Assembly (NCBI RefSeq): GCF_015330125.1
Contig: NZ_JADDXR010000002.1
Location: forward strand, 2,740,685-2,804,684
Direction of reading: 5' to 3'
From: Zobellia nedashkovskayae
GTDB lineage: Bacteria; Bacteroidota; Bacteroidia; Flavobacteriales; Flavobacteriaceae
DNA: 64,000 nucleotides
Each line of letters opens with the position of its first letter. Position 1 is the stretch's first letter. Positions 54,149 through 60,480 of the stretch are shown here, piece by piece. The notes under the pieces were generated by a model, which did no database searches, was not told the origin of the DNA, and saw only the letters and a program-made list of their open reading frames with translations. The position numbers and the translations under genes are program-made.

Positions 54149-54703
54149 TTAAGCTTCCGTCATTTTATTTCTTAAGCTTTCCTTAGCTCTAGAAATAGTA
54201 GTTCTACAATTTGAATAACTAATATTCATGATCTCACATATTTCTTCATAATCATAACCTTCAATAAGATGTAAGGTCAAAGAAACTCTATAGTTATCTT
54301 TTAATCGCTTCATGGTTTCCATCACTTTTTGAGCCTTCGGTTCTGTAAACGCATGAGAGTCGGCAATACCTATTTCGTTATCTTCGACCTTGTACAACAC
54401 ATCTTCTAAAGCAACCTCATTTTTTTTCTGCTGCTTTCTGTACTGATAAATGCTGTTGTTTATTACAATACGCTTCAACCAAGAACCAAATGCAACTTCG
54501 CCTTTAAACGTATGAAGTTTCGTGAACGCGCTCAGAAATGATTCTTGCATGACGTCTTCGGCTTCGTCGCTCTTTTTTACAATTCGTACTGCCGTGTTGT
54601 ACATGGCTTTGTAATACCGATTATAAACCTCGAGCTGGGCACTTTGCTTTCCGTCTAGACACAATTGTAATAATGCATCAATATGTTCTCTTTCTTGGCT
54701 CAA
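54149..54703 (-). CDS. RNA polymerase ECF-type sigma-70 factor
   Basis: 184 residues. Region 2 is visible in EVYNRYYKAMYNTAVRIVKKSDEAEDVMQESFLSAF (about 25-60) and region 4 in LTLHLIEGYDYEEICEIMNISYSNCRTTISRAKESL (about 140-176). It heads a four-gene operon with an anti-sigma-like protein, DUF4097 and DUF2807. The start is TTG at 54703; there is no ATG in frame before the next upstream stop. A 314-base gap separates it from the large exoprotein gene on the other strand. Confidence 0.9.
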   Translation of the reverse strand: MSQEREHIDALLQLCLDGKQSAQLEVYNRYYKAMYNTAVRIVKKSDEAEDVMQESFLSAFTKLHTFKGEVAFGSWLKRIVINNSIYQYRKQQKKNEVALEDVLYKVEDNEIGIADSHAFTEPKAQKVMETMKRLKDNYRVSLTLHLIEGYDYEEICEIMNISYSNCRTTISRAKESLRNKMTEA

Positions 54704-55017
54704 AAAGTGAATGGTTTCTTTATAGATGATGTAAGTTATGGATTGTTACAGTTGATGTAAAAAAAAATCATGTTACTATTCGTCGAATTTAAAAGTCCTT
54801 TAAACGATAACCGGAATAGCAATATTAATGCATAGTTTAATTTTGTCGAATCCCCCAATTAAATTCTTTTTTTTATAATTTTTCAAACTGTTCTTATAGA
54901 AGAGTTTTGTAATAAATTATTTGTCAAAAGTCTGCTTTTTACCAAAAAGCCTCTTTATGGATGAAAATTAAGGATTGGTAAATTAATTATGAATCACATC
55001 TAACCAACCAAATTGAG
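54704..55017. other. Divergent intergenic region between the sigma operon and the exoprotein gene
   Basis: There is no ORF with coding character. It contains a TAATTTTG -7 element for the plus strand (54838-54845), a repeated GTCGAAT (54782 and 54844) and several AT-rich runs. No terminator or RNA gene is visible. Confidence 0.5.
54838..54845 (+). promoter_or_regulatory. Promoter -7 element TAATTTTG for the exoprotein gene
   Basis: An exact TAnnTTTG match 173 bases upstream of the ATG at 55018; no TTG at the usual -33 distance, so the real start may be elsewhere. Confidence 0.35.
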
Positions 55018-58000
55018 ATGATTAAGGGAATAAATCTTCTTTTGTCGAGTAAGCTCTTCATTTTTGTATTAGTATTAAATTTTAGTGTAAACGTACAGAG
55101 TCAAATACCAGTTACCGGAATAGAGATCGTTCTTGACAGTTTGGAAATAGTTGAAGGCTTCGAAGCAATGCTAACGGCAACCGTATTTCCTTCCGATGCC
55201 GATAATAAAGATATCATTTGGTCCACGGATTCCCCAACGATTGTTTCTGTGGACACTTTGGGAACGGTCACGGCACTAGTTCCGGGAACGGCCTCGGTCA
55301 TGGCGACGACTGATGACGGCGGTTTCATTTCGAGTGCTTTTGTGGAAGTTTTAAGAGCGCCGATACAGGTTACCGGAATAGAGATCGTTCCTGACAGTTT
55401 GGAAATAGTTGAAGGCTTCGATGCAATGCTAACGGCAACCGTATTTCCTTCCGATGCCGATAATAAAGATATCATTTGGTCCACGGATTCCCCAACGATT
55501 GTTTCTGTGGACACTTTGGGAACGGTCACGGCACTAGTTCCGGGAACGGCCTCGGTCATGGCGACGACTGATGACGGCGGTTTCATTTCGAGTGCTTTTG
55601 TGGAAGTTTTAAGAGCGCCGATACAGGTTACCGGAATAGAGATCGTTCCTGACAGTTTGGAAATAGTTGAAGGCTTCGATGCAATTTTAACGGCAACCGT
55701 ATTTCCTTCCGATGCCGATAATAAAGATATCATTTGGTCCACGGATTCCCCAACGATTGTTTCTGTGGACACCTTGGGAACGGTCACGGCACTAGTTCCG
55801 GGAACGGCCTCGGTCATGGCAACTACTGATGACGGCGGTTTCATTTCGAGTGCTTTTGTGGAAGTTTTAAGAGCGCCGATACAGGTTACCAGAATAGAGA
55901 TCGTTCCTGACAGTTTGGAAATAGTTGAAGGATTCGATGCAATGCTAACGGCAACCTTATTTCCTTCCGATGCCGATAATAAAGATATCATTTGGTCCAC
56001 GGATTCCCCAACGATTGTTTCTGTGGATTCTTTGGGTATTGTGACTGCACTTAGTGCAGGTGTCGCCCAAGTCATGGCAACTACTAATGGCGGTGGATTC
56101 ATGGATAATGTTTCAATCACTGTGAAGAAGCCTTTAAATGAAGTAGGTAGATGGAGCGAACCCATACCTTTTGGAATAGTTCCTGTAGCGGTTGCTAACC
56201 TTCCAGATGGAAGATTAATCACATGGTCCTCAAAGTATAAGAATTATTTTGGTGGTGCTGATGGTTTTACTTATACAGAAATATTTGACCCTTTTTTAGG
56301 TGTGAATGGACAGCCAGTGGGGGAGAAAGTAACAACCACCAATCATGACATGTTCTGCCCGGGGGTTAATAATTTAGGAAACGGACAAATATTGGTTACG
56401 GGAGGCTCTTCAAATCCAAAGGCAACTTTATATGATTATACAACAGACACCTGGATGCCAATGGACAATATGAACATTGGGCGAGGATATCATAGTGCCG
56501 TTACCCTGTCAGATGGTTCTGCAATGGTAATAGGAGGGTCTTGGAGTGGTGGATTAGCACCAAATGGCGAAAAAATCGCTGAAATATGGAGGCAGGAAAG
56601 GGGTTGGAAAATTTTACCTGGTTTGAAGAGTGATATTCTTTTCAATTCAAATGACTTAGCCTTTGAGGAAGAAGGGGTGTATAGAGCCGATAATCATGCT
56701 TGGTTGTGGGCAGCACCTAATGGAAAGATTTTTCATGCTGGCCCAGGAGAGGAGATGCATTGGATAGATGTAAGTGGAGAAGGATCTTTTGAAGAAGCTG
56801 GAAAAAGATTGAACGACACATATTCAATGAAAGGGAATACGGTAATGTTCGATATTGGAAAATTATTAAAAACTGGGGGCGCTACCTCTTATGCAAGTGG
56901 TGATGCGGCTAAGGATAATTCTTTTGTAATTGATATTAATGATGAAAACAATGTAGTAGTTATACCTACAGTAAATAATCTTTCCTTTAGCAGAACAATG
57001 CAGAATAGTGTAGTATTGCCAAATGGAGAGGTTTTGGTTACAGGAGGCCTTAGTACAGCTAGGGTTTTCACGGATGATGGTGCAAGGTTAGATGCAGAAG
57101 TTTATAACCCCGAAACCAATAGCTGGCGAACCTTGGCAGGTATGCACGTACCGCGTACTTATCATAGTGTTTCCATTTTACAGGCAGATGGAAGAGTATT
57201 TGCAGGAGGGGGAGGTTTATGTAATAGTTGCTCGAATCACTTGGACGCTGAAATATTCAGTCCTCCTTATTTATTTGATTCAAATGGTGATTTGGCGGAT
57301 AGGCCCACTATAAACGCTCCAGAATCTGCGGATTATAATAGTGTAATTCAAGTTTCAGGAAGTGATGATATATCAGAATTTAGTTTAATTAGAATGTCTT
57401 CTTCTACTCACAGTACAAATAATGAGCAAAGAAGAGTACCTATTAGTTTTAGTGGTAATGGAAATTATAGTCTGAATATTCCAGATAGAAATATATTGCC
57501 CCCTGGATATTATATGTTATTTGCCTTAAACAATGAAGGTGTACCCTCAGTAGCAGAGTCTATATTGGTTGGGATGCCTTTAGTTTTGACATCGGGCGTA
57601 GTTTTATCGGAAGAGGCTGTTGAATTAGATTCGGGTGAATTACAAGAGCTAATAGCTACAGTAGTTCCTTCAAATGCAGAAAACCAACTTGTTACTTGGT
57701 CAACGAATAACCCATCAGTTGCAACTGTAGACTCAGATGGTAAGGTGACAGCTATAGCTACTGGAACTGCAATAATTACAGCTAAAACCAATGATGGAGC
57801 ATTTACAGCGAGGGCAAATATTGTCGTAGATGGTGGCTGTACTTTTTCAAACGTAGCATTGGGAGGAACAGCAATTCAATCCAGTACATATGGAAATGGA
57901 AAAGCATTTATAGCCATTGATGGGATTACAACAGGTACTTCCCCATGGGTGCCGGATGTGCAGCACACAACAAATGAAGATTCGGCTTGGTGGGAGTTGG

Positions 58001-60249
58001 ATTTAGGGTCAGATTACATAATTGATGAATTAAAAATTTTTAATAGAGGAGATGGTTTAGAATCTAGATTGAATAATTTTCACATTTTTGTATCAAGACG
58101 ACCATTTTCTTCAATAGCTACATTAGAAAGTTTAATGAGCAATGGTAATATAGTTGAGTATTATTTTGAAGGAGAAGCTGGTTTAGAAGAAACGATTCCT
58201 TTAAATACAGATGGTAGATACATTAGAATTCAATTATCAAGTAGTGGAATTTTAAATCTGGTAGAAGTAGAAGTACAAGGATGCTTTTTAGGTAGCTCTA
58301 AATGTGAAGGTGTCCTTCCTCCAGACATACGTCCTTCGGGTCCATTTATAGCTAATGACACAATACAAATATTAGAAGCGACTCCATTGGGAGGTACTTG
58401 GTCAGGAGCAAGTACTGATGGAACATTTGACCCCAGTAAGGGTCCTGGTACGTATTCTGTTACCTATACTTCTGATAATGGGATTGGCTGTATCCAATCA
58501 TATACCCGAGATATAACCGTTAATAGTTCTTGTACGGGTATTGACCCTCCAAGTATTATAGCAATAGGGCCATATCTTGATACAGATGGGATACAGACTC
58601 TAGAAGCAATGCCAACAGGTGGTACTTGGTCAGGAATAAGCACAGATGGAACTTTTGATCCAAGTGTTGGAGAAGGTATTTATTCGGTAACATATACATA
58701 TGATAACGGGAAAGGGTGTATACAAACTGAAACAGCGGAAATAAGGGTAAACACACTCGGGAGTAGAGGTTGTGTATTGTCTAATATAGCAGCTAATGGT
58801 ACTGCCGTACAGTCTAGTACATATGGTAATGGCACTGCTTCTGTTGCAATAGATGGAGAAACAGAGGGGACTTCTCCTTGGACAGGAAGTCTTCAGCATA
58901 CCCTTAATGAGAATAAACCTTGGTGGGAGCTTGATTTGGGAACGAGCAGTGCCATAGAAGAATTACGCATTTATAATCGTGCGAATGGCTTAGAGGAACG
59001 GTTAAACAATTTTTACGTATTTGTCTCCCAAACACCTTTTGAGACAGGAATCTCGCTTGCGTCATTAAAGCAGGATAACAATATTTACAAATACCATTTT
59101 AGTGGGGAAGCTGGTCTTGAGGAGCACTTGAGGTTTGACGCGGAAGGAAGGTATTTGCGGATTCAACTTTCCTCCTTTGGAATTTTACATATGTCGGAAG
59201 TAGAGGTAATGGGTTGTGTAATGGACTCGTCGCAATGTGAGGATAATCAGGAGATAGTATTCGAGAATGTAGGACCTTTTGCTAGTACGGATGGATTGCA
59301 GACATTAATTGCTAATATAGACGGGGGAATTTGGTCAGGCTTTAGTTCTGACGGTACTTTTGACCCTTCAATAGGCCCTGGTAGTTATTCGGTTACGTAC
59401 TCACATAATAGTGGTGCCGGTTGTTTTCAATCAAAAACTATTGAAATCAAGGTTAATATTTTAAGTGATTCGGGTTGTGTGATGGCTAATTTGGCGATAA
59501 ATGGAACAGCTACTCAGTCTAGTACCTATGGCAATGGGTATGCATCTGCTGCAATCGATGGGAATATTCAAGGAGAATCTCCCTGGTCCGGTGACCTTCA
59601 GCATACCACTAATGAAAATAGACCTTGGTGGGAATTAGACTTAGGAAAAGAAAGAGGGGTTGAAGAAATACACTTATACAATAGAAGCAACGGTTTTGAA
59701 TCGCGTTTGAACAATTTCTATATTTTTATCTCAAAAACACCTTTTGCTGTGGGAGCCTCATTAGAATCTTTACAACAAGATGAGAATATTTTTGAATATT
59801 ATTTTGAAGGGAATGCCAATCTTATGGAAACTTTAAAATTAGTAACAGAAGGTAGGTATGTTCGCATTCAACTTTCGGGTAACGGAATACTTCACTTATC
59901 TGAAGTAGAGGTAATGTCTTGTGATTTAACCTCGAATGCTACGTCTTTAAAAGGTTCTATTACACCAGATAGTTATATGACTTATTCTGAAAATGGAGAC
60001 GATATTCTTTTGGCTCCCAACCCAGTGTTGGATAATGTACAAATTATGGGAATGCCTAGGGAGATGATTTCTAAGATAATTATTTTTGATATGAAAGGTA
60101 GACAGGTACTTAATACTAAGAATATTGAAAACGCATATAGTTATGATACACAGTCTTTAGATGTTTCTATGCTTACAAAAGGAGTTTATCAATTACATAT
60201 CACTTTAATAAATGGAAAAAACTATACAAAACGGTTTTTGAAAAAATAA
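55018..60249 (+). CDS. Multi-domain galactose oxidase-like copper-radical exoprotein with T9SS sorting domain
   Basis: 1743 residues. A signal peptide (LFIFVLVLNFSVNVQSQ) is followed by four Big2 repeats (32-117, 118-203, 204-289, 290-375). A galactose-oxidase module spans 376-851; all residues of the fungal active site are present: Cys447 in HDMFCPG and Tyr491 in RGYHS (the Cys-Tyr cofactor), Trp509 in GGSWSGG, Tyr715/His716 in RTYHSVS and His798 in STHSTNNEQRR. A fifth Big2 lies at about 855-938. Discoidin (F5/8 type C) domains lie at 941-1089, 1252-1400 and 1487-1635, each bounded by Cys. Three Ig-like repeats (GGTWSGxSTDGTFDPS) separate them. The T9SS CTD is about 1660-1743. It likely oxidises a primary alcohol of a sugar, making aldehyde and H2O2. 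The substrate is unknown. Confidence 0.9.
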   Translation: MIKGINLLLSSKLFIFVLVLNFSVNVQSQIPVTGIEIVLDSLEIVEGFEAMLTATVFPSDADNKDIIWSTDSPTIVSVDTLGTVTALVPGTASVMATTDDGGFISSAFVEVLRAPIQVTGIEIVPDSLEIVEGFDAMLTATVFPSDADNKDIIWSTDSPTIVSVDTLGTVTALVPGTASVMATTDDGGFISSAFVEVLRAPIQVTGIEIVPDSLEIVEGFDAILTATVFPSDADNKDIIWSTDSPTIVSVDTLGTVTALVPGTASVMATTDDGGFISSAFVEVLRAPIQVTRIEIVPDSLEIVEGFDAMLTATLFPSDADNKDIIWSTDSPTIVSVDSLGIVTALSAGVAQVMATTNGGGFMDNVSITVKKPLNEVGRWSEPIPFGIVPVAVANLPDGRLITWSSKYKNYFGGADGFTYTEIFDPFLGVNGQPVGEKVTTTNHDMFCPGVNNLGNGQILVTGGSSNPKATLYDYTTDTWMPMDNMNIGRGYHSAVTLSDGSAMVIGGSWSGGLAPNGEKIAEIWRQERGWKILPGLKSDILFNSNDLAFEEEGVYRADNHAWLWAAPNGKIFHAGPGEEMHWIDVSGEGSFEEAGKRLNDTYSMKGNTVMFDIGKLLKTGGATSYASGDAAKDNSFVIDINDENNVVVIPTVNNLSFSRTMQNSVVLPNGEVLVTGGLSTARVFTDDGARLDAEVYNPETNSWRTLAGMHVPRTYHSVSILQADGRVFAGGGGLCNSCSNHLDAEIFSPPYLFDSNGDLADRPTINAPESADYNSVIQVSGSDDISEFSLIRMSSSTHSTNNEQRRVPISFSGNGNYSLNIPDRNILPPGYYMLFALNNEGVPSVAESILVGMPLVLTSGVVLSEEAVELDSGELQELIATVVPSNAENQLVTWSTNNPSVATVDSDGKVTAIATGTAIITAKTNDGAFTARANIVVDGGCTFSNVALGGTAIQSSTYGNGKAFIAIDGITTGTSPWVPDVQHTTNEDSAWWELDLGSDYIIDELKIFNRGDGLESRLNNFHIFVSRRPFSSIATLESLMSNGNIVEYYFEGEAGLEETIPLNTDGRYIRIQLSSSGILNLVEVEVQGCFLGSSKCEGVLPPDIRPSGPFIANDTIQILEATPLGGTWSGASTDGTFDPSKGPGTYSVTYTSDNGIGCIQSYTRDITVNSSCTGIDPPSIIAIGPYLDTDGIQTLEAMPTGGTWSGISTDGTFDPSVGEGIYSVTYTYDNGKGCIQTETAEIRVNTLGSRGCVLSNIAANGTAVQSSTYGNGTASVAIDGETEGTSPWTGSLQHTLNENKPWWELDLGTSSAIEELRIYNRANGLEERLNNFYVFVSQTPFETGISLASLKQDNNIYKYHFSGEAGLEEHLRFDAEGRYLRIQLSSFGILHMSEVEVMGCVMDSSQCEDNQEIVFENVGPFASTDGLQTLIANIDGGIWSGFSSDGTFDPSIGPGSYSVTYSHNSGAGCFQSKTIEIKVNILSDSGCVMANLAINGTATQSSTYGNGYASAAIDGNIQGESPWSGDLQHTTNENRPWWELDLGKERGVEEIHLYNRSNGFESRLNNFYIFISKTPFAVGASLESLQQDENIFEYYFEGNANLMETLKLVTEGRYVRIQLSGNGILHLSEVEVMSCDLTSNATSLKGSITPDSYMTYSENGDDILLAPNPVLDNVQIMGMPREMISKIIIFDMKGRQVLNTKNIENAYSYDTQSLDVSMLTKGVYQLHITLINGKNYTKRFLKK
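55111..56142 (+). repeat. Four 258-bp tandem repeats (Big2 domains)
   Basis: Copies begin at 55111, 55369, 55627 and 55885 (anchor GTTACCGGAATAG, or ACCAGAATAG in copy 4), each exactly 258 bases. Copies 1-3 differ by only a few bases; copy 4 diverges towards its end, where it leads into the oxidase module. Near identity at DNA level suggests recent expansion or gene conversion. Confidence 0.97.
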
Positions 60250-60266
60250 TTTTGAATTTAAATTAT

Positions 60267-60304
60267 AAATAGACAAAGCCCTTTCTTAGGGCTTTGTCTA
60301 TTTT
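60267..60304 (+). terminator. Intrinsic terminator after the exoprotein gene
   Basis: The stem AGACAAAGCCC/GGGCTTTGTCT (60271-60299) is extended by TAAA/TTTA pairs to 60267-60303, with loop TTTCTTA, 18 bases after the stop. Confidence 0.9.
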
Positions 60305-60384
60305 AACGGGTTTTTAGTGGTGAAGGAAGATTTTGTAGAAGGTAGCATGGTATGGCATAAGAATTGCCAATTATGGACAGATAG

Positions 60385-60427
60385 AAAAGGCGCTATTAGT
60401 TGTTACAGTAATGATAACAGCGCTTTT
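60385..60427 (+). promoter_or_regulatory. Large hairpin upstream of lon
   Basis: The outer stem AAAAGGCGCT/AGCGCTTTT (one bulge) encloses an asymmetric ATTA loop and an inner stem GTTGTTA/TGATAAC (two G-T pairs) closing a CAGTAA loop. It could be a second terminator (CTTTTAAT follows) or a leader element of lon. The structure is seen; the role is uncertain. Confidence 0.45.
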
Positions 60428-60458
60428 AATGAATATGATTTTAATAGATAACTAAGGG

Positions 60459-60480
60459 TTCTGTCACTAAAATGACAGAA
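60459..60480. promoter_or_regulatory. Palindrome TTCTGTCA-N6-TGACAGAA just before lon
   Basis: A perfect 8-bp inverted repeat with a 6-base spacer. It ends at 60480, where the most upstream possible ATG of lon begins, and 17 bases before the preferred ATG (60498). It looks like a binding site for a dimeric regulator of the protease gene, but no regulator is known. Confidence 0.55.

Follow-up and report, generated by a model that had tools for sequence, protein, structure and literature searches.

What does a member of the seaweed-associated marine genus Zobellia do with a large, multidomain copper radical oxidase, and on which substrate does the enzyme act? The window analysed here is a stretch of 64,000 nucleotides from Zobellia nedashkovskayae (contig NZ_JADDXR010000002.1), in which an open reading frame at 55018..60249 on the forward strand encodes a protein of 1743 amino acids; its coordinates, frame and length are as first given in a preliminary description made from the letters alone. 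We read the product as a copper radical oxidase of the galactose oxidase type (family AA5) that is secreted and attached to the cell surface, is docked by fucose lectins and makes H2O2, and give this reading a probability of roughly 0.6. A Pfam scan of the protein found five Big_2 domains, a Kelch region, a galactose-oxidase-like (GO-like) early set and three F5/8C-type stretches, as well as, at the C-terminus, a Por secretion tail, which is a sorting domain of the type IX secretion system (T9SS). The layout is as follows.

55018..60249, forward strand: whole gene, 1743 amino acids, multidomain copper radical oxidase
55018..55101, forward strand: signal peptide, about residues 1-28, judged by eye from the sequence
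55111..56133, forward strand: four N-terminal Big2 domains (residues 32-114, 118-200, 204-286, 290-372), profile matches in a tandem repeat
56137..57573, forward strand: AA5 module, residues 374-852, Kelch propeller and GO-like early set, with C447, Y491, W509, Y715, H716 and H798
57589..57834, forward strand: fifth Big2 domain, residues 858-939, profile match
57835..58290, forward strand: F-type lectin domain 1, residues 940-1091, triad H983/R1010/R1017
58318..58752, forward strand: Ig-like modules 1 and 2 (GGTWSG...DGTFDPS), residues 1101-1169 and 1176-1245, internal repeats by profile
58768..59223, forward strand: F-type lectin domain 2, residues 1251-1402, by sequence and profile
59242..59457, forward strand: Ig-like module 3, residues 1409-1480, internal repeat by profile
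59473..59928, forward strand: F-type lectin domain 3, residues 1486-1637, by sequence and profile
59998..60246, forward strand: T9SS type A C-terminal sorting domain, residues 1661-1743 (PF18962, TIGR04183)

By sequence, the closest solved structures were the galactose oxidase of Pseudoarthrobacter siccitolerans, a bacterial enzyme according to the deposited titles (9g43, and 9g8h with galactose; 449 bits), and the Fusarium graminearum galactose oxidase of AA5_2 (1gof; 372 bits, 42-43% identity). The E-values of 2e-133 to 9g8h and 5e-110 to 1gof place the similarity far above chance. Two Colletotrichum oxidases matched at 313-333 bits, whereas similarity was weak to Streptomyces GlxA (94 bits) and to fungal glyoxal/aldehyde oxidase of AA5_1 (50 bits to the Fusarium aldehyde oxidase 9n3u). 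The GlxA equivalog of NCBIfam (NF052501) scored 129.5 bits against a cut-off of 800, which together with these low scores led us to reject membership in the GlxA or glyoxal oxidase groups.

The motifs HDMFCPG, GGSWSGG and GGGGLC lie at residues 443, 506 and 730. The cofactor and metal residues C447, Y491, Y715, H716 and H798 align to Fusarium positions that we take to be C228, Y272, Y495, H496 and H581, with none displaced from the active site. W509 aligns to the Fusarium tryptophan numbered W290 in the available part of PMC11267884. The preliminary description had thus located residues and motifs correctly; its statement that every residue of the fungal enzyme is kept holds for the cofactor and metal site but fails in the substrate pocket, where Gln326 and Gln406 are replaced. 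We aligned 241 domains, namely the query and 240 listed homologues (the best 120 of each of two lists of 1618 and 3271 proteins at E <= 1e-20, samples skewed to close relatives). The cofactor/metal set (CYYHH) was present in 239 of the 239 domains with all sites filled; in the other two rows the final His falls in a gap. The tryptophan W290 occurred in all 241, F464 in 240 and R330 in 233. The predicted model shows a Kelch propeller and an early-set C-terminal domain in the galactose oxidase fold.

The ratio of nonsynonymous to synonymous substitution rates (dN/dS) of the oxidase module was 0.037 (genomes G000-G002), 0.049 (G002-G006) and 0.07 (G000-G006), compared over three Zobellia pairs with 0.015-0.019 for lon and ~0.06 for the sigma factor gene, and with 0.08-0.25 for lectin domain 1 in the pairs where it was computable; dS is near saturation in these comparisons, which makes the ratios rough. 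The comparison shows the catalytic module to be under apparent purifying selection, and the protein is very probably a functional AA5 oxidase, as judged from its sequence. The T9SS tail scored above cut-off with both profiles (PF18962, 39.7 bits against 27; TIGR04183, 31.1 bits against 23), and the genome contains a match to SprA_N, a T9SS translocon component. The sorting tail, the signal peptide seen by eye and SprA together support predicted export of the oxidase to the cell surface.

Sequence identifies the three stretches called discoidin domains in the preliminary description as F-type lectins, an assignment that the predicted jellyroll fold of domain 1 also supports; the count of three was correct, as was that of five Big2 domains, but three Ig-like modules stand between the lectins (region 1133-1168 matches PF16403 at 26.3 bits, slightly below the cut-off of 27). 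All three lectin domains have a basic His/Arg/Arg triad with spacings of 27 and 7, which corresponds to the fucose triad His52/Arg79/Arg86 of eel agglutinin in the accessible text of PMC5712786. In predicted fold and triad spacing they resemble F-type lectins and CBM47 modules (eel agglutinin 1k12, striped bass FBP32, Streptococcus pneumoniae 2j1r and 2j22). Unlike FBP32, they lack a contiguous Cys pair in the alignment, and unlike these lectins and modules they are linked to an oxidase. The acidic residue of the RXDX4R/K motif is Asp in domain 1. The sequence AIDG, compared here with the cation motif h2DGx, occurs three times; the next residue is I, E and N in turn, and the published x allows only the N. 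The lectin domains, as predicted, probably hold fucose-bearing glycans, and a glycan of this kind is slightly favoured as the docking target.

The query reads W F E Y R A F at the seven AA5_2 pocket positions, where Fusarium has W F Q Y R Q F and 9g8h has W F G F R D F. The Trp290/Arg330 pair and the aromatic residues F194 and F464 are all represented (W509, R556, F411 and F684), and Tyr329 is likewise shared with Fusarium. The pair is described as a key indicator of galactose 6-oxidase activity in the part of PMC11267884 available to us. The pocket WFEYRAF is identical in seven of the seven closest homologues (P0001-P0007); over all rows it appears in 10 of 239.

Several points weigh against the proposed reading. 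Fusarium Gln326 and Gln406 are replaced by Glu552 and Ala626, and loss of one or both glutamines generally, though not exclusively, tracks loss of galactose 6-oxidase activity (PMC11267884, as far as accessible). In lectin domains 2 and 3, Asn takes the place of the acidic residue of the fucose motif, in contrast to the F-type lectins and CBM47 modules named above, and seven of 34 well-scoring lectin domains violate even the loosened motif. The gene is missing from six of nine Zobellia genomes and is therefore dispensable, and the flanking genes, named by reading as sigma factor, anti-sigma factor and lon, show no polysaccharide-degradation function. GH29 alpha-fucosidases show no co-distribution with the oxidase: among the nine Zobellia genomes, those with it have 11, 11 and 9 matches and those without have 12, 10, 8, 20, 11 and 15. 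The window's genome has 11, two of them pieces within one frame. Such similar numbers fit a fucose-rich niche of Zobellia rather than a link to the oxidase, and we dropped GH29 number as a sign of fucose use by this system. The loss of the glutamines is tempered, however, by 9g8h, which was deposited as a galactose oxidase with galactose and has Gly and Asp at these positions. In the accessible Table 2 of PMC11267884, certain galactose oxidases are likewise without one or both glutamines, and that source describes NhaGalOx, with the pocket W F E Y R R F, as a galactose oxidase of lower efficiency. With both glutamines of the pocket substituted, oxidation of a galactose-type C6-OH is plausible, and we put such a hydroxyl as the oxidised group at about even odds.

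Under the proposed reading, copper loading would form the Cys447-Tyr491 crosslink, and the enzyme would turn a primary alcohol into an aldehyde, O2 being reduced to H2O2 in the reaction. Its target would most likely be the C6 hydroxyl of galactose or of a similar hexose, held in the pocket of Trp509, Arg556, Phe411 and Phe684; Glu552 and Ala626 would change the affinity or the specificity. The Big2 stalks would keep the oxidase at a distance from the cell, and docking on fucose-bearing glycans, for example a fucose-containing polysaccharide of brown algae or an exopolysaccharide, would fall to the three F-type lectin domains. Both the glycan substrate and the H2O2 output of the Zobellia enzyme are what we infer from these features.

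The same oxidase could instead act on an aldehyde or on a small alcohol, primary or aryl, the lectins just anchoring it in the cell's own matrix or on some surface and H2O2 being the key product (for antagonism, supply to peroxidases or haloperoxidases, or matrix cross-linking). The changed glutamine positions suit this alternative, and Glu at position 326 with W290 and Y329 also occurs in the pocket W F E Y K Q F of FgrAAO and FoxAAO, listed as aryl-alcohol oxidases in Table 2 of PMC11267884 as available to us. Identity of WFEYRAF throughout P0001-P0007 suggests selection for something particular. However, the query retains Arg330 where FgrAAO and FoxAAO have Lys, and three glycan-binding modules point to a polymer or glycan target; we consider a small-molecule substrate rather unlikely. 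Less probable still is action on the cell's own glycan in surface-polymer deposition or morphogenesis, comparable to Streptomyces GlxA and myxobacterial FbfB, in favour of which two bacterial AA5 proteins with mutant phenotypes act in development (PMC3543389, accessible part). A catalytically dead Kelch adhesin, suggested by the large, repeat-rich surface protein and its absence from six of nine Zobellia, is very improbable and was rejected on the catalytic five, intact in 239 of 239 scorable domains including the query, and on the module dN/dS of 0.037 to 0.07.

The AA5 type with intact cofactor/metal site, T9SS tail and carbohydrate-binding modules put forward in the preliminary description is supported by sequence and profiles, whereas the uniqueness it proposed for the arrangement is not: seven of the best 120 long homologues listed (P0001-P0007, from Zobellia, Pseudozobellia, Pareuzebyella and one further source) share the Big2 and lectin type of architecture. 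Five are complete with a T9SS tail, and two (P0003 and P0004) end early. They resemble the query in pocket residues and, where complete, in module order; the five complete ones differ in counts, having 2-7 N-terminal Big2 copies and either three or four lectin domains. In the query, a 258-bp tandem repeat encodes the N-terminal Big2 stretch, copies 1-3 being 97-99% identical (window 55111-56036). Near-identical repeats and 2-7 copies among relatives suggest that stalk length is quick to change. Antisense to the repeats is a 373-amino-acid open frame (55101-56222, reverse strand) that looks like a by-product of the repeat.

Among the same best 120, 87 match no query Big2, lectin or tail profile, and their precomputed Pfam annotation often shows LamG, PKD or different F5/8C domains. 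A tree of 45 rows, hand-picked from loci and lists, placed Bacteroidota in one clade (SH-aLRT 99) apart from the Fusarium and Pseudoarthrobacter group (93); the outgroup and Fusarium branches are long, and Fusarium is the lone fungal sequence. AA5 relatives also occur in Burkholderiaceae (many of L014-L053, mostly 42-51% identity), Hahella, a cyanobacterial bin and Actinomycetota. Several listed relatives (P0182, P0200 and P0202) are joined to ricin-type lectin domains, which indicates that lectin-tethered AA5 oxidases recur in other phyla. A related flavobacterium (G025; L066, L068) has two AA5 copies. Tentatively, the Bacteroidota AA5 clade may consist of T9SS-exported oxidases with swapped modules (fucolectin, LamG, F5/8C, PKD, Big2) aiming at different marine glycans, its Zobellia branch being directed by a triplet of fucolectins and oxidising the hexose C6-OH of fucose-containing algal polysaccharide to give an aldehyde-tagged polymer and surface H2O2; this broader picture is doubtful. 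To our knowledge, no such oxidative route is known in marine glycan breakdown.

A galactose oxidase from a bacterium already has a crystal structure with galactose (9g8h, by its title), and AA5 together with multigenic CBM47 was recorded in Zobellia by a 2019 automated dbCAN survey of carbohydrate-active enzymes, the enzyme passing without comment in the accessible part of PMC6950322. Bacterial AA5 proteins with data include GlxA and FbfB (PMC3543389) and a Burkholderia pseudomallei alcohol oxidase (cited in PMC11267884), both papers as far as accessible. Our literature search, judged by titles and abstract starts and covering subscription literature poorly, found no work on a Bacteroidota AA5 enzyme among the papers listed; it returned nothing pairing galactose oxidase with type IX secretion, only off-topic papers for galactose oxidase with Zobellia, and none on the galactose oxidase of Pseudoarthrobacter siccitolerans/Paenarthrobacter or on 9G8H. 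Most work on AA5 enzymes has been done with fungi, and what the bacterial members do in nature is largely unsettled. The enzyme family is already known, and what this marine clade adds is a full active site, a non-Fusarium pocket conserved in the closest group and fucose-type modules; it might also yield oxidases suited to the glycans of algae. The binding domain is N-terminal in the Fusarium enzyme, while the Zobellia protein has three C-terminal fucolectin domains.

The oxidase module occurs once in its own genome, and at E <= 1e-20 it was found in six of 119 relatives' genomes including that one, with three of nine within Zobellia; PF09118 agreed (6 of 13 genomes tried). Within Zobellia the gene belongs to a unit that is present or absent as a block.

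54754..60352, no strand: unit present or absent between the sigma factor gene and lon in Zobellia, edges accurate to about ±15 bp

In the six oxidase-less Zobellia genomes, sigma and lon are divergent neighbours ~212-215 bp apart, and alignments show just ~20-40 bp replacing window ~54754-60352. Close relatives with so clean an empty site offer a natural comparison for finding the substrate. Among 14 named loci, the sigma factor gene stands beside the oxidase in five (L003, L004, L005, L007, L012) and lon downstream of it in three (L002, L004, L005); neither was found in eight (L006, L008-L011, L013, L037, L039), where the DNA is partly short. In the Pareuzebyella locus (L005, 250-1404), two further fucolectin-type domains, which are not part of the oxidase gene, precede the gene for the anti-sigma factor by ~2 kb.

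Pseudozobellia and Pareuzebyella share the sigma-oxidase-lon order, so the position of the oxidase is old in the group formed by these genera and Zobellia, with several losses (4-5, hand-counted on a tree in which one node has support of only 49). A recent transfer into the window's species is not supported, given this conserved order and an oxidase dS to G002 (1.32) close to that of lon (1.41); repeated loss is simpler than recent arrival. However, Zobellia uliginosa (G006, L002; L076 and L077 against window 54149-60480) argues against a purely vertical history. Its sigma gene, upstream region and gene start are 98% identical to the window, whereas the catalytic and lectin part has diverged (71% DNA identity), with an assembly break between two contigs. 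The dN of its oxidase to the window is 0.125, nearly the 0.143 of Pseudozobellia, although for lon its dN (0.023) is a third of the Pseudozobellia value (0.070). A diverged allele behind a 98% identical gene start indicates that recombination acted there, and this mosaic suggests recombination between species at the oxidase locus; some lineages may have regained the oxidase.

A sigma-70 promoter scan performed at chance (20 found, 18.6 expected), and the Bacteroidetes-type TTG...TAnnTTTG pattern had no match in 54761-55017. Dedicated control by the neighbouring sigma factor is unlikely because sigma and lon stay adjacent where the oxidase is missing. The remaining signal, which was not among the sites of the consensus scan, is a hairpin beyond the gene end.

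60267..60303, forward strand: likely terminator, a hairpin with a 16-pair stem ending T-rich, fold of -24.4 kcal/mol for a 70-base stretch
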